In this document: positions 22,628 to 32,547 of the stretch, piece after piece
Layout: each line of letters begins with the position of its first letter
How positions within the stretch are numbered: the first letter of the stretch is position 1
Assembly: GCF_000226115.1 (NCBI RefSeq)
Contig: NC_016457.1
Span: 2,604,001 to 2,668,000 of the forward strand
Source: Thermothielavioides terrestris NRRL 8126
Lineage: Eukaryota; Ascomycota; Sordariomycetes; Sordariales; Chaetomiaceae
Reading direction: 5' to 3'
DNA: 64,000 bases
The notes under the pieces: model-generated
The model's database searches: none
What the model was told of the DNA's origin: nothing
What the model saw: the letters and a program-made list of their open reading frames with translations, nothing else
Made by a program: the position numbers and the translations under genes

Positions 22628-22796
22628 TAGTGCAAAACCTCTACACCAACCTACTCTACCACACCTAGGACCAGGCGCGCAAGATAGCTCCCAAAGGAAT
22701 GTAGTATCCCTCTAGACGGATAAAGATAGTATATATCAAATAGTAGGAAGGATATCTCCTAAGAGGAAAATATATAGCTTAGGCGTATCTAGTAGG
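22628..22796 (-). repeat. left LTR of the RIPed element, outer part
   Basis: Aligns base for base with 44448-44616 in the right LTR, differing almost only by C/T and G/A transitions. The split point is the insertion site of the younger element. Confidence 0.85.
22792..22796. repeat. target-site duplication GTAGG, left copy
   Basis: The same five bases follow the nested element at 32230-32234. The uninterrupted right LTR of the host element has the sequence once, proving the insertion. Confidence 0.95.
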
Positions 22797-23390
22797 TGTC
22801 ATGCCCCGGAGCCACCCTAACCCGCGGGACCCGCCTCGGCACCCGGCACAGCCCTCGGAACGCGCCTCGGCACCTGGCACAACCCTCGGCCCGACCACCT
22901 CGCCCTGCATCCGGCACCCGGCGCAGCCTGGCCAACCACAGGGCACCACGCAGGTCATCTGCGTGCGCCACCAGGGCGCACGTCAGTAGCCCAGATCACG
23001 CGAGCCACCCGGAGGAGCGATCGGAGGGGCACAGAGCTGAGCGAAGTGCGGGGCATCAGGCTGAGCAAGTGCGGGGAACTGAGACATTGGGTCGGCAGCA
23101 GAGCGGATTGGGCGCACTCAGGGAGCTATGCAGGCGCCACAGGATGGCCCAGGAAAGGATCTGCGAGCTCAGGAATGGAGGCTGGCCGATGCGGAGGAAG
23201 ATCGAGGGCCAGGATGGGAGAAATAAGGAGGATGGAACCCACAGGCAGTGGGAGAGGCCAGCGTTCAATGCAACCACCCGCAACCCCCCTACCTGTAGCT
23301 ACCCTGTAGCGCGTGCTCTGCTTGTGCCTTGCTCGTACTCCGTCACTTCAACGTATACCCCCTTCCTTCTGGGAGCCCCCGCTCCTGACA
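22797..23390 (+). repeat. 5' LTR of the chromovirus
   Basis: 594 bp, starts TGTCATGCCCC and ends GCTCCTGACA. If transcription starts near 23260 (see the self-priming complement), U3 would be about 463 bp and R plus U5 about 130 bp. Confidence 0.95.
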
Positions 23391-23401
23391 AGTTGAACGC
23401 T
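23391..23401 (+). other. candidate self-priming primer-binding site
   Basis: The base after the LTR begins AGTTGAACGCT rather than the TGG expected of a tRNA 3'-end complement. TTGAACGCT (23393-23401) is exactly complementary to AGCGTTCAA inside the LTR (23260-23268), extendable by a G:U pair. This is the geometry used by Tf1/sushi-type retrotransposons, where the 5' end of the RNA folds back to prime reverse transcription. Confidence 0.5.
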
Positions 23402-23441
23402 CTTATCCCACCTCAGGGAGTTGAACCGGCGGAGACGAGCC

Positions 23442-25103
23442 ATGGCCCAGACCCGCGCCCGCGCTGCGCTCGAGCAGAGCCCTGCACCCTCGCAATCTCA
23501 GGCACTTTCCACCGATCCGACCTCTTCGTACACCCTCTCCGCACCGCCTGCGCCTGACGCCACCATGGGCGAGAGCTCCCAGCACGCCCAGATTGATCTG
23601 AACGGCTCCCGTGCAGCGCCTATCGACCCCCTGCTCTCCACCCAGGAGCGCGACCTTGCTGAGGAAGAGCGCCGTCTGAGCGCTGAGATCGCTCTCGAGC
23701 GCCGCCGTCAAGCTATCCTCCAACTGCGAGCTCAGCATGCGCAGCTCCTGCGCCAGAATGCCCAGCTTGCGCATGTTGCCGAGGGCGCCACCTCTTCGAA
23801 TTCCGACCCTCTTGCCGCCCAGACCGCCAATACCACCGTGCCGGCTGCATCTGTTGCCGCGCCTGCGCCCGCACCCGCTCCTGCACCTGCTCCTGCGCCT
23901 GTTGCCGCGCCTGAGGCTGCGCCCGTGGCCGCTGCGCCTGCGCCCGCACCTGTGGCCGCACCTGTGGCCGCGTCTGTTGCCATCGATGCCCCTCCGCCCG
24001 CTGCCAATCCTGAGTTCAGCGCTCCTATTGCGCCCTCGCCGATCCTTCCCAGCGCTGCGGGAGCTCCCCTCTGGCGTGCCGCTGGCTTGAACCACCCCAC
24101 GTACAGCGGCAAGGATGCTTCTTCGCTTCGGGCCTTCCTGTACGACTGCCGCACCAACTTCCAGCTCATGGGCTACTCGCTCGATGGTAGCGACTGCGTT
24201 GCGTACGCGGCAAGCTGCCTCCGAGGCCCGCCCAAGAACGCCTGGGTGAAGTATGTCCAGGAGCAGGAGGCCGATCCTAACTTTCGTCTCTCGGCCATCA
24301 CCTGGGGCGAGTTCGTTGCGTTCCTTCAAAACGAACTATCTGATCCCGATTCGCGCGCCTTCAGTGCGGCCTCGGAGCTTGAGCGCCTCGCACAGCGCGA
24401 AGACGAGACCGTCCCGGAGTTCGTTGAACGGTTCACCAGCGTAATCGCCGACATGCCTTCGAAGTGGGATGAACCCACCCGCATAGTCACCCTCCTGCCG
24501 AAGTTCCGCCCAGAGATCAGCTTCATCCTCAACTGCTCCCCCCAGTTACCCGCTACGTTCCAGCAGCTCGTGAGCTTCGCCCGCCGTATCGAGCATAGTC
24601 AGCGCATTGCCGGCACCTCTCGCTATCGCCCTCGCTCGTCAAACAACGCCCCCACGGCTCCGCAGCCGCCGCGCCCTGTTAACGTCCCGCCCGCGCCCTT
24701 CCAGCGCCCCGTTCGATGCTTCACCTGCGGCAGGGAGGGCCATCGCTACGCCAACTGCCCCGAGAACCGCCCTCCTGCCCAGCCTGCCCCGCCTTCTGCC
24801 CCGCCTGTTCAGCCTGTTCCGCCTGCGGCTGCGCCCACCCAGCTTCCTCCTGCGCAGCCCGCACCCCAGCAACCCGCCCCAGATGCTGCCACGGCACCCG
24901 CTGCTGCGCCCAAGTCGCGCCCAGTTTGCTACACCTGCAACGAAGTTGGCCACATCTCCACATTCTGCCCCAAGGCCATCTGCCGTCGTTGCGGGCGTAC
25001 AGGTCACACCGCTGTTCGTTGCCCGGAGCCTCTGAACCCGAACGCCCAGAATAACCCGAACCTTGCTCCGCTCGGGCGCGACCGCAGCGCCAACGCCGCC
25101 TAG
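23442..25103 (+). CDS. gag: Gag polyprotein of the chromovirus
   Basis: 553 residues from ATG 23442 (the first ATG after the leader) to the UAG at 25101. N-terminal third: a coiled-coil segment rich in Glu/Arg (about 65-105), then an Ala/Pro-rich spacer of repeated APAPAPA units. A retrotransposon-Gag capsid-type domain follows (about 215-390), with YSGKDASSLRAFLYDCRTNF and WGEFVAFLQNELSDPDS. Three CCHC zinc knuckles close the protein: CFTCGREGHRYANC, CYTCNEVGHISTFC and CRRCGRTGHTAVRC. The second and third are close together, the first separated by about 55 Pro/Ala-rich residues. Gag packages the element RNA into virus-like particles in the cytoplasm. Most gypsy Gags have one or two knuckles, so three is slightly unusual. 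Confidence 0.95.
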   Translation: MAQTRARAALEQSPAPSQSQALSTDPTSSYTLSAPPAPDATMGESSQHAQIDLNGSRAAPIDPLLSTQERDLAEEERRLSAEIALERRRQAILQLRAQHAQLLRQNAQLAHVAEGATSSNSDPLAAQTANTTVPAASVAAPAPAPAPAPAPAPVAAPEAAPVAAAPAPAPVAAPVAASVAIDAPPPAANPEFSAPIAPSPILPSAAGAPLWRAAGLNHPTYSGKDASSLRAFLYDCRTNFQLMGYSLDGSDCVAYAASCLRGPPKNAWVKYVQEQEADPNFRLSAITWGEFVAFLQNELSDPDSRAFSAASELERLAQREDETVPEFVERFTSVIADMPSKWDEPTRIVTLLPKFRPEISFILNCSPQLPATFQQLVSFARRIEHSQRIAGTSRYRPRSSNNAPTAPQPPRPVNVPPAPFQRPVRCFTCGREGHRYANCPENRPPAQPAPPSAPPVQPVPPAAAPTQLPPAQPAPQQPAPDAATAPAAAPKSRPVCYTCNEVGHISTFCPKAICRRCGRTGHTAVRCPEPLNPNAQNNPNLAPLGRDRSANAA

Positions 25104-25137
25104 GAACTCGGGGGGCCCAGGTCGTCTCGGATCGAGA
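25101..25137 (+). promoter_or_regulatory. in-frame gag UAG stop with candidate readthrough context
   Basis: gag and pol share the same reading frame; only the UAG at 25101-25103 separates them and no other stop occurs before pol. The next base is G (UAG-GAA), followed by a G-run and GGGCCC, and a perfect 5 bp hairpin (TCTCG-GAT-CGAGA, 25125-25137) begins 22 nt downstream. The arrangement suggests stop-codon readthrough rather than frameshifting. Confidence 0.65.
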
Positions 25138-28100
25138 GCACTGTCCTCGTGCGCTTGGATAAGAATTGGAAGCCTGCGGTAGCAATGCTAGATACTGGGT
25201 CGGATTACAACATGATCAGTCGCAGCTTTCTAGCTGAGCACTCGCAGTTGACCAAGTTCATTCAGTGCCCTGGATTTGCCGCTGTTGGCAATGTGCCTGT
25301 TCTGACGTACGGCGTGTGCCCCCTGCATGTTCGCATCACCGACCACCTTGGATACTCCCAGACCTGCCTGCTGCGCTTCGTGGTCGCAGATATCGAGCCA
25401 TTCACAATCCTCTTGGGCCAGACTTGGATGGAGATGGCCGAGCCATTCTTCAACTACCACGAAAAGACTTGGACTTACCCGAACTCGAAGCGCCACCTTG
25501 GCTTGCAAGTTGAGCCCAAGCAGGATTGGAGCGATAATGCTTTCCTTGTTGCCGCGCTTGTGCCAGTCACCGACCCAGCCGAACCGCCCGACCCAGCCAA
25601 CCCAGACGACCCAGCCGAAGAAGACTCGCCCACCGTTGGCTTGCAACCTGCTACTCCCGAGCTCCCGGAAGTGTATGAGGCCTACCGAGACCTCTTCTCC
25701 ACTGCGGATCGACCTCCCCTGCCTCGCCACACTGCGCTTGAGCACCGCATCGATCTCGAAGACGGTGCGACTGCGCCATGGGGGCCGATCTACCCTCTCA
25801 GCGAGAAGGAATTGGAAACCCTGCGCAAGTGGCTCGCGGAGGCTCTGGAGAAGCAGTGGATCCGACCTTCCACCAGTCCCGCAGGCGCGCCCATTCTGTT
25901 CGTTCCGAAGAAGGGAGGCGAATTGCGCCTCGTTGTCGACTATCGTGCGCTCAATCACATCACCCGCAAGAACCGCGCTCCCATTCCTCTGATCGGCGAG
26001 ATCCTCGATCGCCTGTCTTCCGCGAAGATCTACACCAAGCTCGATTTGAAGGATGCGTACTATCGGATCCGGCTGCGCGAGGGCGACGAGTGGAAGACCG
26101 CCTTTCGCACGCGTTACGGCCACTTCGAGTTTGTTGTGATGCCGATGGGCCTGGCTAACGCACCCGCAACCTTCCAGACTTACATCAACCATGCCCTCTC
26201 TGGCCTTGTTGATGTCACCTGCATCGTGTATTTGGATGACATACTGATCTTTAGCAACGACGAAGCTGAGCACGAGCGGCATGTGCGCGAAGTTTTGGAA
26301 CGGTTGCGAAAAGCCGACCTCTACGTCAACCTTCCCAAGTGCCGGTTCCATGTGCGCGAAGTCGAATTCCTCGGGTTCATTGTCACCCCGGAGGGCATCA
26401 AGATGGAACCATCGCGCGTTGAAGCCATTGCGCAGTGGCCGCTACCTCGCAGCGCTCACGACATCCAGGTGTTCCTTGGGTTCACTGGCTTCTACCGCAG
26501 GTTCATTCGCAACTACTCGAAGATCTGCGCCCCCCTGACCGACCTACTCCGAGGCAATCGCACCTTTGAGATGACACATGATGCGATCGATGCGTTCCAC
26601 GAGCTACAGCGCAGATTCCAGGAAGCGCCCGTCCTGCGCCATTTCGATCCCAGCCTTCCGACCCGCGTTGAGGCAGATGCTTCGAAGTTCGCCATCGGCG
26701 CGGTCCTCTCCCAACTGTTCGAGGGCCAGTGGCACCCTGTTGCGTTCCGCTCCCGCAAACTCAGCCCCGAAGAAACGCGCTACGGCACCGGTGATGGGGA
26801 GCTGCTTGCGCTCGTCGACGCCTTTCGTGCCTGGCGGCATTACCTCCTGTACTCGCAGACCACCGTCATCGCCCTCACTGACCACCTAAACCTCGAGTAC
26901 ATGAAGACGAAGAAGCGGCCCTCTGCGCGGCAGCTGCGCTGGAGCGATGAGCTCGCAGAATTTGACTTCGTCATTAAGTATCGCCCCGGCCCGCAGAACC
27001 CTGCTGACGGACTCTCTCGAAGACCAGACCTGGCAGAAGGCCCCAGCGACGAGGGCGCCGAGAACCCGCTGCTACGGCTCCTGGAGGAGCGTATTGCTGC
27101 GGGAAAGGACCATGTGCCAGGGCACCGCTCTACGGTTGGGGTTGTCACTCTGGCTGTGCGGCCGAGACCCAGTATGGGCCTCAGAGAGTTGGAGGATGCG
27201 TATGAGCTGCGTGAGCGGGAGTTTGATGAGAGTGTTGCGCCTGATGTGCGCCTCGAGGAGGGCCATCGGGAGGTCTCGCAGCGCGTGGGTAGCGGCAAGC
27301 GTCACCGTGAGCCCACGGCTGGGGACGAGGGAGAGGCGGCGGCGCAGAGGCCTCGCCTGGATGACGCTTTTCCACTGGTCAACCACGGCTTGGACGGAAG
27401 TGCCACCCGCGGCCCAGATGGACCTGGTAAACCGCCGCTGGAGCGTGGCTCCCCGGAGGCCCAGGAAACACACGCAAGGGAACCTGGCCACCCGGGGCCT
27501 GGGCGGCGACCCCCCTCGGACCAGACGGCCCGCAGCAGTCTGGCTGGCGGCGTGCGTGCGCCTGATCACCGCCCGTACGTCGCTGCCGCTGCTAGGAAGC
27601 CGGTGGAGGACGAAGGCTGGCCTTTTGAGCAGCAACTAATCCAGGCACAGGAAGTCGATCCCTGGGTGACTGAGGGCGCTTGGAAGACGGCTCGCATGCG
27701 CAGGCAGTGGAAGCTCGGAGACGATGGCATCCTGCGTTACAGCGGCAGGATCTATGTGCCTGCGGCCCTGCGGCACACGCTTTTGGCGCGCTACCACAAC
27801 GCTGCAACAGGTGGCCATGGCGGCATCAGGAAGACTCGCGAGCGCCTGATGCGCTACTACTACTGGCCGGACATGCGCAGGGAGATCGATCAACATGTGG
27901 TGGAATGCGTCACATGCGGCCGCACGAAAGCGAGAACCCACCGCCCTTACGGCGAGCTCGCAGCGCTGCCGGTTCCTGAGCGCCCGTGGCAGGATATCAC
28001 GGTCGACTTCGTCACTGGCCTGCCCACCTCCATCGACCCCCGCACGCACAAACCCTGCGACGCCGTCCTCGTCATCGTCGACAAGTTTACCAAGTACGCC

Positions 28101-29078
28101 CTCTACATCGCAACGCACAAGCAGCTCCAGGCTGGCGCCTTTGCCCACCTCTTCTTCGATTACGTCTACCGACCCTTCGGCCTGCCGCAGACCATTGTTT
28201 CCGACCGCGGGAGCTTGTTTACAAGCGGGTTTTGGCGCGCACTCTGCGACCTCTTGGATGTCACGCAAAAGCTGAGCACTGCGTACCATCCTCAGACTGA
28301 CGGCCAGACAGAGAGGCAGAATCAGGCGTTGGAGCATTACCTGCGCACTTACTGCGCGTGGGAGCAGCATGACTGGGCGCAGAAGTTGGCTCTGGCCGAA
28401 CACACTTACAACACCTCAGTGCATTCGGCTACGAAGGCGACCCCGGCATACCTCCTTTACGGCTACCACCCGCGCGATCCGGCAGACCCGCTTGCGAACA
28501 GCTCGAGCAACGTTCCCGCTGCGGAGGAGCGTGCTAGGAAGCTCGCCAAGGATCGGGAAAGAATCCGCGAGGCCCTGGTGCAAGCCAACGAAGGTTATGC
28601 GAAGTGGTACAACCGCAAGCGCACGCCCATGACCTTCAGAGTTGGCCAGTGGGTTTGGGTTGATTCAAGGCACATTCGCCAGCGGCGCCCGAGCAGCAAA
28701 CTCGCAGATAAGTATCTCGGGCCGTTCAAAATCATCGCTGATGTGGGCAGCAAGAAGATGGCGTATCGCTTGGATCTCCCGCCTGCGTTCAAGTTCCACC
28801 CTGTTTTCTCTGTTGCGATGCTCGAGCCGTTCAACGGCAACCTGCAGGAAGCGCTCGCGTACCGCGATCGCGTGCAGGTCGTTGCGCAGGAGCAGCATTG
28901 GGAGGTCGAAGCCATTCTTGATCATGCAGGGCCACCTCTCGACAGGTATTTCCTCATCAAGTGGAAGAACTACCCGCCAGAGGAGAACACCTGGGAGCCG
29001 CGCAGGCATATTGATGACGGGCCTTTACTGCGCGCTTACGAAGCACGCATTCAAGATGAGCACAGGCGCAGGCGATGA
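25104..29078 (+). CDS. pol: Pol polyprotein (PR-RT-RH-IN-chromodomain)
   Basis: Open from the codon after the gag UAG to the stop at 29076-29078 (1,324 residues); the first ATG is far inside, so a Gag-Pol fusion by readthrough is the likely route. Aspartic protease MLDTGSDYN comes first, then reverse transcriptase (LRLVVDYRALN, PMGLANAPATFQTYIN, YLDDILIFS near 26230), RNase H (VEADASKFAIGAVLSQ), and a roughly 170-residue disordered charged linker with GKRHRE. The integrase has its HHCC finger (HNAATGGHGG...CVTCGRTK), catalytic core (DFVTGLP, VSDRGSLFTS, TAYHPQTDGQTERQN) and GPF-type C-terminal region. A chromodomain ends the protein (FLIKWKNYPPEENTWEPRRH). All catalytic residues I checked are intact, so the element looks competent. 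Pol order RT-RH-IN is that of Metaviridae. Confidence 0.96.
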   Translation, partial: ELGGPRSSRIESTVLVRLDKNWKPAVAMLDTGSDYNMISRSFLAEHSQLTKFIQCPGFAAVGNVPVLTYGVCPLHVRITDHLGYSQTCLLRFVVADIEPFTILLGQTWMEMAEPFFNYHEKTWTYPNSKRHLGLQVEPKQDWSDNAFLVAALVPVTDPAEPPDPANPDDPAEEDSPTVGLQPATPELPEVYEAYRDLFSTADRPPLPRHTALEHRIDLEDGATAPWGPIYPLSEKELETLRKWLAEALEKQWIRPSTSPAGAPILFVPKKGGELRLVVDYRALNHITRKNRAPIPLIGEILDRLSSAKIYTKLDLKDAYYRIRLREGDEWKTAFRTRYGHFEFVVMPMGLANAPATFQTYINHALSGLVDVTCIVYLDDILIFSNDEAEHERHVREVLERLRKADLYVNLPKCRFHVREVEFLGFIVTPEGIKMEPSRVEAIAQWPLPRSAHDIQVFLGFTGFYRRFIRNYSKICAPLTDLLRGNRTFEMTHDAIDAFHELQRRFQEAPVLRHFDPSLPTRVEADASKFAIGAVLSQLFEGQWHPVAFRSRKLSPEETRYGTGDGELLALVDAFRAWRHYLLYSQTTVIALTDHLNLEYMKTKKRPSARQLRWSDELAEFDFVIKYRPGPQNPADGLSRRPDLAEGPSDEGAENPLLRLLEERIAAGKDHVPGHRSTVGVVTLAVRPRPSMGLRELEDAYELREREFDESVAPDVRLEEGHREVSQRVGSGKRHREPTAGDEGEAAAQRPRLDDAFPLVNHGLDGSATRGPDGPGKPPLERGSPEAQETHAREPGHPGPGRRPPSDQTARSSLAGGVRAPDHRPYVAAAARKPVEDEGWPFEQQLIQAQEVDPWVTEGAWKTARMRRQWKLGDDGILRYSGRIYVPAALRHTLLARYHNAATGGHGGIRKTRERLMRYYYWPDMRREIDQHVVECVTCGRTKARTHRPYGELAALPVPERPWQDITVDFVTGLPTSIDPRTHKPCDAVLVIVDKFTKYALYIATHKQLQAGAFAHLFFDYVYRPFGLPQTIVSDRGSLFTSGFWRALCDLLDVTQKLSTAYHPQTDGQTERQNQALEHYLRTYCAWEQHDWAQKLALAEHTYNTSVHSATKATPAYLLYGYHPRDPADPLANSSSNVPAAEERARKLAKDRERIREALVQANEGYAKWYNRKRTPMTFRVGQWVWVDSRHIRQRRPSSKLADKYLGPFKIIADVGSKKMAYRLDLPPAFKFHPVFSVAMLEPFNGNLQEALAYRDRVQVVAQEQHWEVEAILDHAGPPLDRYFLIKWKNYPPEENTWEPRRHIDDGPLLRAYEARIQDEHRRRR

Positions 29079-29192
29079 GCGGCGGGAACGCAACGAGGGC
29101 GCCAAGCGGCGCTTCAATTGAGGAAAAAAGAAAAGAAAAGGAAAAAAGAAAAAAACAACGCAAGAACCACCCACCCACCCAACAGCCACCCC

Positions 29193-30647
29193 CTACATCG
29201 CCAAGTCCTTCTCCAAGCCCTGGATCGACTCCGTCACGAACTCGGCCACCTGCGCGTCATCAGCGCCCTCCTCGCTACCCCCCTCCCCCTCCTCACCCTC
29301 CTCCGGCGGCGGACCCCAGCTCTTCACCACCACCAAAATTTCATTCTTTGATTGTTAGCCACACACACGCTTCGTGGACGCAACGGACTCGCAGACTTAC
29401 CACCACCCCCTCCACACGCTTCTGCTGCTCCTCCAGCTTGGCCAGCCTCTCCACCACCTCCTCCAGCGTAGTGCTAGGAGGAGGGGGAGGAGGTGGGAGC
29501 GGCGCGGGCGCGCCGACGAAGCGCCGGAGGCGCCTCTTCAGCACGCCCTCCGCCTTCCGCACCTCCCCCCACTGCTCCGAGAAGTTCTCGGAGCGGGCGG
29601 TGGGGGCGACCGGGGCACCGCTGATGGCCTCGCGGGCCACCGCAAGCGCGTCGACGACGCCCTGGACAAGCGCAGCCGGCTAGAACGCGCTCAGTACACG
29701 CATCGCGCACGCAGGGGAGACACTTGAAAACTTACCTTTTCATCGGCGGCGGGGTGGTCCCTCTTGTCGAGGGCTTCGATAAAGCCGCAAACTGCGGCGA
29801 GGGCAGTAGGATGAATCTTCATTTTTTCAGAGGGATCAGCAACAGCGCAACGCACACGCAACGAAAACGCAGGTTTCGGCTTCAAGGCGCTGAGGTCAGC
29901 GCCTTTGAAGGAGGAGGGCAACTCACAGCCGGGCAAGTATGGTTATTTTGCGCACACTCGACGCAGCGCGAACCGGAACCTACGAGCATGTCAGACGCAA
30001 CGAACACGCAACCTACACGCAGACACGCACCGGCTTGATGGTGGCAGACGGGGGCGCCACCACTGTCGAAAAACTTGGCCACACAACGGCGGCAGCTACC
30101 ATTGTCAGCACACGCACAGCCCGCGCCTCCGACACGCTTCGGTTGCGCTCTCTGCACTTACGGAATGATGCGGGCAGCGCCCGCAGGGACTCTCTTCTTG
30201 GGCGTCGAGTCAAGGTCACTGGACTGCCGCACTGTCAGCGATCGCGTTGCTCCCCATCTGCGCCCTCTCTACGTACCGCCCTTCTCTTGCGGCCGAAGCC
30301 GCCCTTGCGCGGAGTCGGAGGCTCGGATTCCTCCATCTCTTCGTCCTCGTCCTCCTCCTTCTTCTCCTCCTTCTCGTCGTCGTTGGCGGGCGCAGCCGCC
30401 GCGCCAGACGCACGCTCCGCGGGAGCCGCGGGCGCGTCGTCGGCGGGCGACTCCGCCTCGCCAGCAGGGCGCTCTTCAGGCGCCGCGTTGATGGGCCGGA
30501 AGCCCAGGCTCGAGAACAACTTTGACATGATTGCTTCTACCCAGCGTGTCAGCAGCGTCCGCCCTGCTCCATCCATCGACATCTCAGCGTTGAAGGTCAC
30601 TCACGAGGCGCGGCCGGAAATGAATGAGTTATTTGAATCTGCCACAT
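29193..30647 (-). CDS. antisense eight-exon gene inside the retrotransposon; Cys-rich, coiled-coil protein of unknown function
   Basis: Proposed exons complement(29193..29345, 29401..29661, 29736..29879, 29927..29979, 30031..30095, 30162..30223, 30277..30536, 30605..30647), about 346 residues. All seven introns (about 47-74 nt) have GT-AG ends, most with CTAAC/CTGAC-like branch points, and phases sum to one open frame. The start is uncertain (ATG 30647, or 30528 without exon 1), and the 29879 acceptor is the weakest junction. Order: SKLFSSLGFRP, an Ala/Pro/Glu region, a highly acidic stretch, a basic GGFGRKRRA; then a Cys cluster CRRCVAKFFDSGGAPVCHH...RCVECAQNNHTC that could bind zinc; a conserved-looking HPTALAAVCGFIEALDKRDH; LKRRLRRF; a Pro run; a coiled coil TTLEEVVERLAKLEEQQKRV; and an acidic tail ending GLEKDLAM. 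I do not recognise the family. It lies wholly between pol and the 3' LTR, opposite to them. Confidence 0.72.
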
Positions 30648-31369
30648 TGTCAGCGCACCATTGCATTCTTCCCGCCGGCCGCGCAGCGAGTTCGCCAGCC
30701 ACGCGGCCCTCGCACGCTGGAATCGCCAGAGCCATCCTGTCGATCGAGAGCCATCCTGCCAATCGACCGAACCATCGCGGGGCGACCTACCGAGGAGAGG
30801 CGAGGGCGGAAGCGCCAAAAAAAAAACGAATCATCTGCAGAGCGAAGAAGTCAGCCATGCGCGCGCGATCAGAGGGAGCGTTAGGAGGAAGCAGAGGGCA
30901 CGCGCGCGATCGCAATCGCGGGCCAGTATCGCATTGTCGTCGTGGTGGGCTGGGCACTTAGGTGGGCTGGGCACTTACGAAGATGGCGCGAAGGAAGAAA
31001 AGGAGGAAAGGAAGGCTGGGAGCCGCGAGCCCAGAAGATATACTCGGTAAGGTGGTCCAAGCTTGGAGGGCTCAAAATCCTGTGTTTCTTGCATCGCAAT
31101 GTTCTGGCAGAAGTTTCAATTCCCCTTTTCCATGTGCGCAGCGAAGGCGCTTGGGACGCGCATAGTGTGCGCTCCTTACCCCTTTTTCTTTCCTGCCGTC
31201 ACCCCAAACATGCACACCTTCTATTCAGTTCTATTCAGCTCTATTGTTGCCTTCCTGTTTCGGGCCTGAATAGGCCCTGAATAGGCGGCCCCAGATCTGA
31301 ACAGGCCACTTCCATCTGGGCCGCCCTGGATCGCGCATGCGGAGGAGCAGTTGGATCGATGGAGGCCGC
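30648..31369. other. non-coding segment of the chromovirus upstream of the antisense gene
   Basis: About 720 bp with no supported coding region on the plus strand. By position it should contain the promoter of the antisense gene. An A9 run lies at about 30819-30828. Confidence 0.45.
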
Positions 31370-31380
31370 GCATGCAGGAA

Positions 31381-31575
31381 GATCGCAAGCCGCGCATGCG
31401 CCACCCGAACTACCGCTACGCGATCTGCCGCCGGCAGGCTAGGCCGCGGGCCGAAGCGCGACTGACAGGAACCACGCGTGCGGCAAGATCGTAAGCCGCG
31501 CATGCGCCACCCGAACTACCGTTACGCAGTCCGCCGCCGGGCATGCAAGGCTACGACCCCGAGGCGCGACCACTG
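31381..31575. repeat. two-copy direct repeat, about 85 bp units offset by 106 bp
   Basis: GATCGCAAGCCGCGCATGCG at 31381 recurs as GATCGTAAGCCGCGCATGCG at 31487, and similarity continues through CACCCGAACTACCG...CGCC to the GGCGCGAC near the end of each copy. GC-rich, with several GCATGC sites. It lies between the antisense gene and the purine tract. Confidence 0.7.
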
Positions 31576-31620
31576 CGCCCCTCAGGCTACGGCACGGCAG
31601 TCCCTGGGGTCAGGGACCTT

Positions 31621-31635
31621 GAAGGAGGAGGGCCC
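31621..31635 (+). other. polypurine tract before the 3' LTR
   Basis: GAAGGAGGAGGG, then CCC, immediately precedes the 3' LTR TGTCA. This is the expected primer for plus-strand DNA synthesis. Confidence 0.75.
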
Positions 31636-32229
31636 TGTCATGCCCCGGAGCCACCCTAACCCGCGGGACCCGCCTCGGCACCCGGCACAGCCCTCGGAAC
31701 GCGCCTCGGCACCTGGCACAACCCTCGGCCCGACCACCTCGCCCTGCATCCGGCACCCGGCGCAGCCTGGCCAACCACAGGGCACCACGCAGGTCATCTG
31801 CGTGCGCCACCAGGGCGCACGTCAGTAGCCCAGATCACGCGAGCCACCCGGAGGAGCGATCGGAGGGGCACAGAGCTGAGCGAAGTGCGGGGCATCAGGC
31901 TGAGCAAGTGCGGGGAACTGAGACATTGGGTCGGCAGCAGAGCGGATTGGGCGCACTCAGGGAGCTATGCAGGCGCCACAGGATGGCCCAGGAAAGGATC
32001 TGCGAGCTCAGGAATGGAGGCTGGCCGATGCGGAGGAAGATCGAGGGCCAGGATGGGAGAAATAAGGAGGATGGAACCCACAGGCAGTGGGAGAGGCCAG
32101 CGTTCAATGCAACCACCCGCAACCCCCCTACCTGTAGCTACCCTGTAGCGCGTGCTCTGCTTGTGCCTTGCTCGTACTCCGTCACTTCAACGTATACCCC
32201 CTTCCTTCTGGGAGCCCCCGCTCCTGACA
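31636..32229 (+). repeat. 3' LTR of the chromovirus
   Basis: Same 594 bp length as the 5' LTR and no difference found when read side by side, indicating a very recent insertion. Confidence 0.95.
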
Positions 32230-32234
32230 GTAGG
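32230..32234. repeat. target-site duplication GTAGG, right copy
   Basis: Matches 22792-22796; the interrupted LTR sequence resumes with ATATAG as in the right LTR of the host element. Confidence 0.95.
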
Positions 32235-32547
32235 ATATAGCAGAAAGATAAAAGACAATAAGAATATAGTCAGAGCTTAATAGCTCGAATGCCTATCGTC
32301 TAGATAGAGGTAGAACAACAAAAGGAGAGGCTTAGTAGCCCTCCTAGAAGAAAAAGAACTATCAACGTAGTGCTAACGAACGTATATTTACAATTGCTTA
32401 ATATCTTACTTAATAACAAAGAAGATGGGCTTAGCCTACTTAAATATATATAATTAGAGGGCTAGATCCCTTAGCAACGAATATAATGTACTAAAACGAA
32501 TAGAAAAACTAGGTCCCTATATTTAGGTAGTCCATTACCCTAATTTA
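32235..32547 (-). repeat. left LTR of the RIPed element, inner part
   Basis: Continues the left LTR after the nested insertion and aligns with 44617-44929. It ends CTAATTTA where the right copy ends CTAATTCA, one C-to-T change. Confidence 0.85.

Follow-up and report, generated by a model that had tools for sequence, protein, structure and literature searches.

A seven-intron antisense gene between pol and the 3′ LTR of a young chromovirus of Thermothielavioides terrestris

Introduction

Several plant elements (Grande, RIRE2, Retand and PvRetro13) and the fungal element Boty carry antisense genes in the interval from pol to the 3′ LTR (PMC7264820, PMC11963269). Gene23 of Grande has a nuclear product and its own promoter, and the antisense open reading frames (aORFs) of plants occur in most copies of their elements (PMC7264820, PMC11963269); those of Retand are the antisense TRP28 ORFs (PMC11963269). 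The gene of the Boty-like elements of Botrytis cinerea, brtn (Zhao et al. 2011), is mentioned in PMC8365987 and in PMC4227169, where it is found beside a gag-pol with CHROMO, and in Monilinia a transcript has been reported that resembles Pol and BRTN (PMC5987419). PMC7264820 gives the function of the antisense genes of LTR elements as unknown, urges that antisense and spliced transcripts be examined, and notes that retroelement antisense transcripts can have effects as RNA. Spliced antisense genes are also known from HTLV (PMC10186651).

The window analysed here is a stretch of 64,000 nucleotides from the ascomycete Thermothielavioides terrestris NRRL 8126 (contig NC_016457.1), in which a chromovirus carries a minus-strand gene at the same position. 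An antisense gene at this place is not new in kind, since it is already found in plants and in Botrytis (brtn); an earlier note on this DNA had suggested that such a gene could be undescribed, a view not supported in light of the precedents in Grande, RIRE2, Retand, PvRetro13 and Boty (PMC7264820, PMC11963269). By description, the locus is like that of brtn in Boty, a fungal element with gag, RT, IN and CHROMO and with one antisense gene between pol and the 3′ LTR (PMC7264820). It is also like Grande gene23, RIRE2, Retand TRP28 and PvRetro13 in position, orientation and presence in most copies; introns in the plant aORFs are not mentioned in the available excerpts of PMC7264820 and PMC11963269, whereas the window gene has seven. 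Retand, which does not belong to the chromoviruses, encodes TRP28 (PF04195), a domain without a match in the window protein.

By analogy only, the gene resembles HBZ of HTLV-1 and APH-2/3/4, which are antisense and spliced, with HBZ and APH-2 acting as nuclear regulators (PMC10186651). The HBZ and APH genes are expressed from the 3′ LTR, and HBZ has a bZIP domain; their products are not known to have a six-cysteine cluster. The his3AI and mneoI markers place a reverse-facing intron in a retroelement, from whose RNA it is spliced; the window introns, in contrast, are spliceable only from the antisense mRNA and so persist. The literature searched, beyond which most subscription papers lay, yielded no fungal element with an antisense gene of several introns and no exchange of an antisense cassette.

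Results

The host element is a young chromovirus

The T. terrestris genome comprises 36.9 Mb in six contigs. At 22797-32229 of the window lies a Ty3/gypsy chromovirus of ~9.4 kb with the following features.

22797..23390, plus strand: 5′ LTR, 594 bp, identical to the 3′ LTR
23442..25103, plus strand: gag, with Retrotrans_gag and a CCHC zinc knuckle; its TAG end is in frame with pol
25104..29078, plus strand: pol, with RT, RNase H, integrase, SH3 and chromodomain
29905..29919, plus strand: exact second copy of the 15-nt polypurine tract, within antisense intron 5
31619..31633, plus strand: polypurine tract, adjoining the 3′ LTR
31636..32229, plus strand: 3′ LTR; the target-site duplication GTAGG stands at both flanks of the element

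The LTR ends are of the TG..CA type usual for chromoviruses (TGTCATG...CTGACA; duplication GTAGG), and the Pfam order along pol, namely PF00078, PF17917, PF17921, PF00665 and PF00385, is that of chromoviruses, with the chromodomain at the C-terminus. The element is a young chromovirus with gag and pol intact.

At window positions 25101-25106, the TAG closes gag and pol runs on in the same frame, and the first ATG of pol stands only two codons ahead of a protease-like DTG motif. The in-frame TAG and the late ATG together suggest that Gag-Pol is made by putative stop-codon readthrough. The second polypurine tract overlaps by eye the end of a 10-bp inverted repeat (29884-29905) and is possibly an internal primer site for the plus strand.

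Exon–intron structure of the antisense gene

The minus strand of the pol-3′ LTR interval, read from 30.7 down to 29.2 kb, gives a single open frame once seven GT-AG introns are removed; the frame closes at the TAG 29195-29193 and lies at the position that characterizes an aORF-3R.

30978..31045, minus strand: candidate TATA-like sequence, CT-rich start region and GTAAGT donor of an upstream leader exon, by eye
30605..30638, minus strand: probable 5′ leader exon, part of the earlier exon 1; upstream 3′ splice site CTGACAATGTGGCAG
30537..30604, minus strand: intron 1, 68 nt, probably within the leader
30277..30528, minus strand: coding exon from ATG 30528 (MSKLFSSLGF...), with an acidic stretch and the basic GRKRR
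30224..30276, minus strand: intron 2, 53 nt
30162..30223, minus strand: coding exon with the PKKRV basic segment
30096..30161, minus strand: intron 3, 66 nt
30031..30095, minus strand: coding exon, first half of the Cys cluster (CRRC...C)
29980..30030, minus strand: intron 4, 51 nt
29927..29979, minus strand: coding exon, second half of the Cys cluster (CVECAQNNHTC)
29817..29926, minus strand: intron 5, 110 nt, or 47 nt (29926-29880) with the acceptor at 29880
29736..29816, minus strand: coding exon, becoming 29736-29879 with the short intron 5
29680..29735, minus strand: intron 6, 56 nt, without a CTRAC branch site
29401..29679, minus strand: coding exon (exon 7), helical in a low-confidence model
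29346..29400, minus strand: intron 7, 55 nt, with an alternative acceptor at 29322
29193..29345, minus strand: last coding exon, acidic tail and stop TAG 29195-29193

A candidate upstream intron (30715-30639) has a likely 3′ splice site, CTGACAATGTGGCAG, that contains the ATG at 30647; exon 1 is therefore probably a 5′ leader and ATG 30528 the first good start. The earlier note had joined the same seven introns into one frame, which stands, but its start moves from ATG 30647 to ATG 30528 and its length from about 346 to 314 aa with the 110-nt intron 5 or 335 aa with the 47-nt form. Further upstream, the TATA-like sequence near 31040, the CT-rich stretch and the GTAAGT donor at 30978, all picked by eye, suggest a putative leader with further introns.

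The donors of introns 1 to 7 are GTGAGT, GTACGT, GTAAGT, GTGCGT, GTGAGT, GTAAGT and GTAAGT. As had been claimed, most introns have branch points, with CTGAC in introns 1-4 and in the short form of intron 5, CTAAC in intron 7 and none in intron 6. By eye, several introns have the short motifs GTTGCGT, CGAAGCGTGT and CTGACAATG in common, as if of the same origin.

Splice and coding signals

Intron-like structures were counted strictly, as a GTRNG donor, a CTRAC branch site and an AG, and compared with dinucleotide shuffles (n = 500). The minus strand of 29193-30660 holds 6 non-overlapping structures, against a shuffle mean of 0.64 and maximum of 4, so that 0 of 500 shuffles reached 6; the plus strand of the same interval holds 0. 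For the codon-usage log-odds, three window ORFs served as presumed host genes in training; one of the three has no Pfam match. The spliced antisense frame scored +0.154 bits per codon and was the sole positive among the scored frames of the region, the others (two spliced, three unspliced, three plus-strand and one plus-strand ORF) lying at −0.07 to −0.54. On the same scale, pol scored +0.187 and the three training ORFs 0.14-0.31; gag scored −0.031, which shows the measure to be imperfect. The minus strand thus contains an intact antisense frame that has several introns and carries coding signals.

The predicted protein

The Cys cluster, basic segments and acidic ends that the earlier note had read are all visible in the translation. 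The six cysteines are spaced CX2CX12CX9CX2CX6C and may form a putative zinc binder, and the basic segments GRKRR and PKKRV presumably resemble nuclear signals; together with the acidic ends, these features point to a predicted nuclear binding protein. A single-sequence structure model of exon 7 was helical, at low confidence (mean pLDDT 59.5, pTM 0.29).

No Pfam match near the cut-off was returned for the window protein and none for pieces of the Cys cluster; bZIP, the hallmark of HBZ, was absent among its Pfam matches up to E = 10. A sequence search of the PDB gave three matches, none better than E = 1.4. In the Zn2Cys6 binuclear cluster of fungi (PF00172), the first loop is X6. This family was rejected, as there was no Pfam match and the first loop is X12 here and X11 in an antisense gene of another element, compared below (L046).

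Searches by shared 5-residue words, one of which scored the 7993 candidates that had the most words in common with the query, returned no protein relative in other fungi, no BRTN and no record of the intact spliced antisense protein; distant relatives would be missed by such searches, since shared words are required. The sole match, THITE_117983, comes from the same genome, and this gene model best matches L006 (G000:C3:955457-958010), a copy hit by repeat-induced point mutation (RIP).

Copies, RIP and constraint

At least four further copies are identical to the window element over the 2556 bases searched, giving five identical in all. The fetched loci, L001-L030, include the window (L005) and 25 diverged copies (L006-L030); a few smaller matches were left out, and copy counts are minima. 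The antisense region was present, at least in part, in 30 of the 30 fetched loci, and the gene thus shares with aORF-3R genes the presence in most family copies. The claim that antisense introns survive retrotransposition is supported, and the region is a standing part of the element.

The differences of the diverged copies are nearly all C>T/G>A (226 of 226 in L006, 444 of 450 in L024 and, at the lowest, 420 of 489 in L029). RIP accounts for most stops in the copies, and those stops refute nothing. Selection was thus tested on non-RIP differences, with shared-site tests restricted to sites seen in two or more copies. Against L029, 9 of 22 A/T-site transitions were synonymous (22% expected, P = 0.04; dN/dS-like ratio 0.42), and of those common to two or more copies 9 of 19 were (P = 0.014; ratio 0.32). 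The same ratio was 0.28-0.36 in gag and 0.05-0.07 in pol. Shared transversions in the window gene showed no synonymous excess (2 of 12, vs 19% expected without constraint). All unique non-RIP coding differences, unfiltered, amounted to 27 synonymous and 55 nonsynonymous, and L023 had 5 synonymous vs 21 nonsynonymous non-RIP differences plus two non-RIP stops.

Indels in multiples of three made up 6 of 6 in coding and 3 of 14 in non-coding sequence (P = 0.002); a 2-nt insertion at 29861 in one copy falls in coding sequence if intron 5 is short, and the in-frame indels are then 6 of 7. Triplet slippage in the acidic repeats may lie behind part of the multiple-of-three indels. No non-RIP change was found at splice and branch positions in 1729 cells of 31 rows, 5 of which are the identical copies. 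Introns were slower than synonymous sites in non-RIP differences (7 of 194 vs 9 of 69 changed, P = 0.015) and changed no faster than nonsynonymous sites (29346-30604, minus strand), so that they are slow beyond what simple coding selection explains.

The comparison of copies proposed in the earlier note therefore gave a mixed outcome: stops were found but are confounded by RIP, and among non-RIP differences the A/T-site transitions speak for constraint and the transversions against it. Given few sites and mixed results, protein constraint on the window gene, similar to that on gag, is likely from these comparisons but not proven.

Antisense genes in other chromoviruses of the genome

In an RT search of the genome, 115 of 451 candidates were scored, comprising 30 of the window family (58-100% identity) and 85 at 31-49%. 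One of the other elements, L039, has downstream of RT an antisense frame that contains one intron and encodes a CxxC cluster. Used as a genome query with X at stops, this frame gave 129 matches. An opposite-strand antisense match stood 2.2-3.4 kb downstream in 51 of the 85 RT matches outside the window family; 3 had another arrangement within 8 kb and 31 had none.

After 13 partial or intermediate antisense matches had been excluded from the 129, the other 116 were assigned to types: type B, at least 57% identical to the query (47 of 116), and type C, below 46% (69 of 116), with L054 as the variant C′. Because RIP makes only transitions, transversions test the reading frame cleanly. Among 11 loci, they reached at most 1.1% within B, at most 0.4% within C, 6.6-6.7% between C and C′ and 26-27% between B and C. 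By codon position they fell 9/3/34 between C (L040) and C′ (P = 2 × 10−8) and 54/41/95 between B and C, a bias indicating that the B and C antisense frames are under selection as protein. Both B (L039, MSVAAATLGG...) and C (L050, MLATVASLGD...) have their first intron after 26 codons and at an identical phase; an antisense intron has thus passed through retrotransposition since before the types split. As judged from these sequence comparisons, the B and C antisense genes are mutually homologous, bear introns and are under clear frame constraint.

Kinship of the window gene

All six cysteines align between the window protein and L046, whose spacing is CX2CX11CX7CX2CX6C, and in both proteins V-[AS]-[KR] follows the second cysteine, with C-x-E-C further on. 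The profile match between the window and the B/C genes was weak (hhalign probability 0.8%, P 0.067), and their alignment was equalled in 9 of 5000 shuffles, or in 69 of 5000 with the cysteines fixed. The window gene has introns within the Cys cluster, whereas the B and C frames have none there. These statistics are no more than suggestive, and shared descent of the window gene and the B/C antisense genes is plausible.

A genome search at E ≤ 1 revealed no intact host homologue; outside the family, it returned only the fragment in L031 and two weak matches. The L031 fragment (L031:9405-9560, G000:C1:2829404-2829559) is Cys-cluster-like, 45% identical, and lies outside the recognised element copies. 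L032 (C1:6116259) was rejected as a relative, since it is an unrelated-looking 485-aa frame with a low-complexity match, and a Pfam scan of the matching 74-aa stretch gave nothing; L033 was rejected because its match is not significant.

With the RT query, no relative was found among viral contigs, and two loci were found among prokaryote contigs, L056 (RT 57%) and L057 (27%). The former (CADCWO010000016.1) is a fungal-looking gypsy gag-pol that is filed under a cyanobacterial MAG and ends 336 bases after pol; it is probably a mis-binned eukaryotic contig.

Probable exchange of the antisense cassette

L041 (type B, on G000:C1) and L040 (type C, on C3) differ in RT by 4 transversions in 1032 bases (0.4%). 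Along pol, transversions stay at 0-2% per 200-base step to about L041:4204, just past the chromodomain, beyond which they rise to 16-30% over the antisense gene and then fall through 10% to 6% at the LTR (L041:6265-6527). A second copy of this segment 7 kb upstream on the same strand, beyond RT (C1:9579462), shows it to be the LTR; its sequence also matches beside C-type elements, e.g. at C2:123166. In a control comparison of two B elements, L041 and L039 (on C6), the values were 0-5% from pol to LTR and 6% in the step running past the LTR. Among the best 40 of 122 candidates scored for an L040-like pol 3′ end (40 of 41 matches, a second piece of one element being excluded), 29 carried C, 9 B and 2 neither, and the types were interleaved by pol identity.

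The simplest reading of these patterns is that the antisense cassette, from pol to LTR, was swapped by template switching or recombination. Had the sequences instead diverged very unequally in place, 0.4% next to 27% and such an abrupt boundary would hardly be expected.

Discussion

Our main reading, to which we give a probability of about 0.7, is that a recently active chromovirus carries a permanent, host-spliced antisense gene, whose product is probably a nuclear protein of ~314 aa that regulates the element. We infer that host RNA polymerase II would transcribe the gene from the minus strand of integrated DNA, with a promoter probably between the gene and the 3′ LTR, and that the spliceosome would remove the introns from this transcript. 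Since the genomic RNA reads the complement, the introns would be copied unspliced in each round. The protein, with its acidic N-terminus, basic segments, Cys cluster, probably helical region and acidic tail, would act in the nucleus and most likely regulate the transcription or expression of its own element, or its integration. By analogy, nuclear regulation of its own element, as proposed for GENE23 of Grande and as for HBZ in HTLV-1, appears most likely.

An unlikely alternative is that the antisense RNA is itself the product, pairing with the genomic RNA and controlling copy number or silencing, and that the open frame is incidental. An RNA role is possible for retroelement antisense transcripts (PMC7264820) and would agree with introns as conserved as nonsynonymous sites; the 9/3/34 distribution of transversions over codon positions in the antisense genes of other elements argues against it, as do, for the window gene, its codon use and the indels in multiples of three, and no Rfam family reached the gathering threshold in 22700-32300.

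Quite improbable, in our estimate, is a captured host gene riding with its introns as passive antisense cargo and intact because amplification was recent. The five identical copies do indicate a recent burst, the introns look like ordinary fungal ones and the diverged L031 fragment (45%) lies outside recognised copies, but the genome holds no intact host homologue at E ≤ 1 and the word-based protein searches gave none, the gene is already present in the most diverged copies, L029 and L030, and antisense genes stand at the same place in other elements. A chance open frame in GC-rich sequence is very improbable, since, although the plus strand also has a long frame (29909-30961, 350 aa), no shuffle reached the splice structure, only the spliced frame had a positive codon score, and the constraint and indel data speak against it.

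The regulatory antisense gene allows a bolder extension that we regard as doubtful: fungal chromoviruses may have an ancient, exchangeable antisense locus whose spliced product serves identity or competition between elements, or counters host silencing; near-identical gag-pol backbones would then hold very different antisense alleles, swapped by recombination as a cassette between pol and LTR, and the introns would be retained for confining expression to integrated DNA.

This small genome thus holds five identical copies of an element whose antisense gene has seven introns, which shows that a retroelement can retain introns lying in the opposite orientation. Transversions allow constraint to be measured in genomes scarred by RIP. 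Elements that combine an almost unchanged pol and LTR with strongly differing antisense genes provide a natural domain-swap experiment on the function of the antisense gene.
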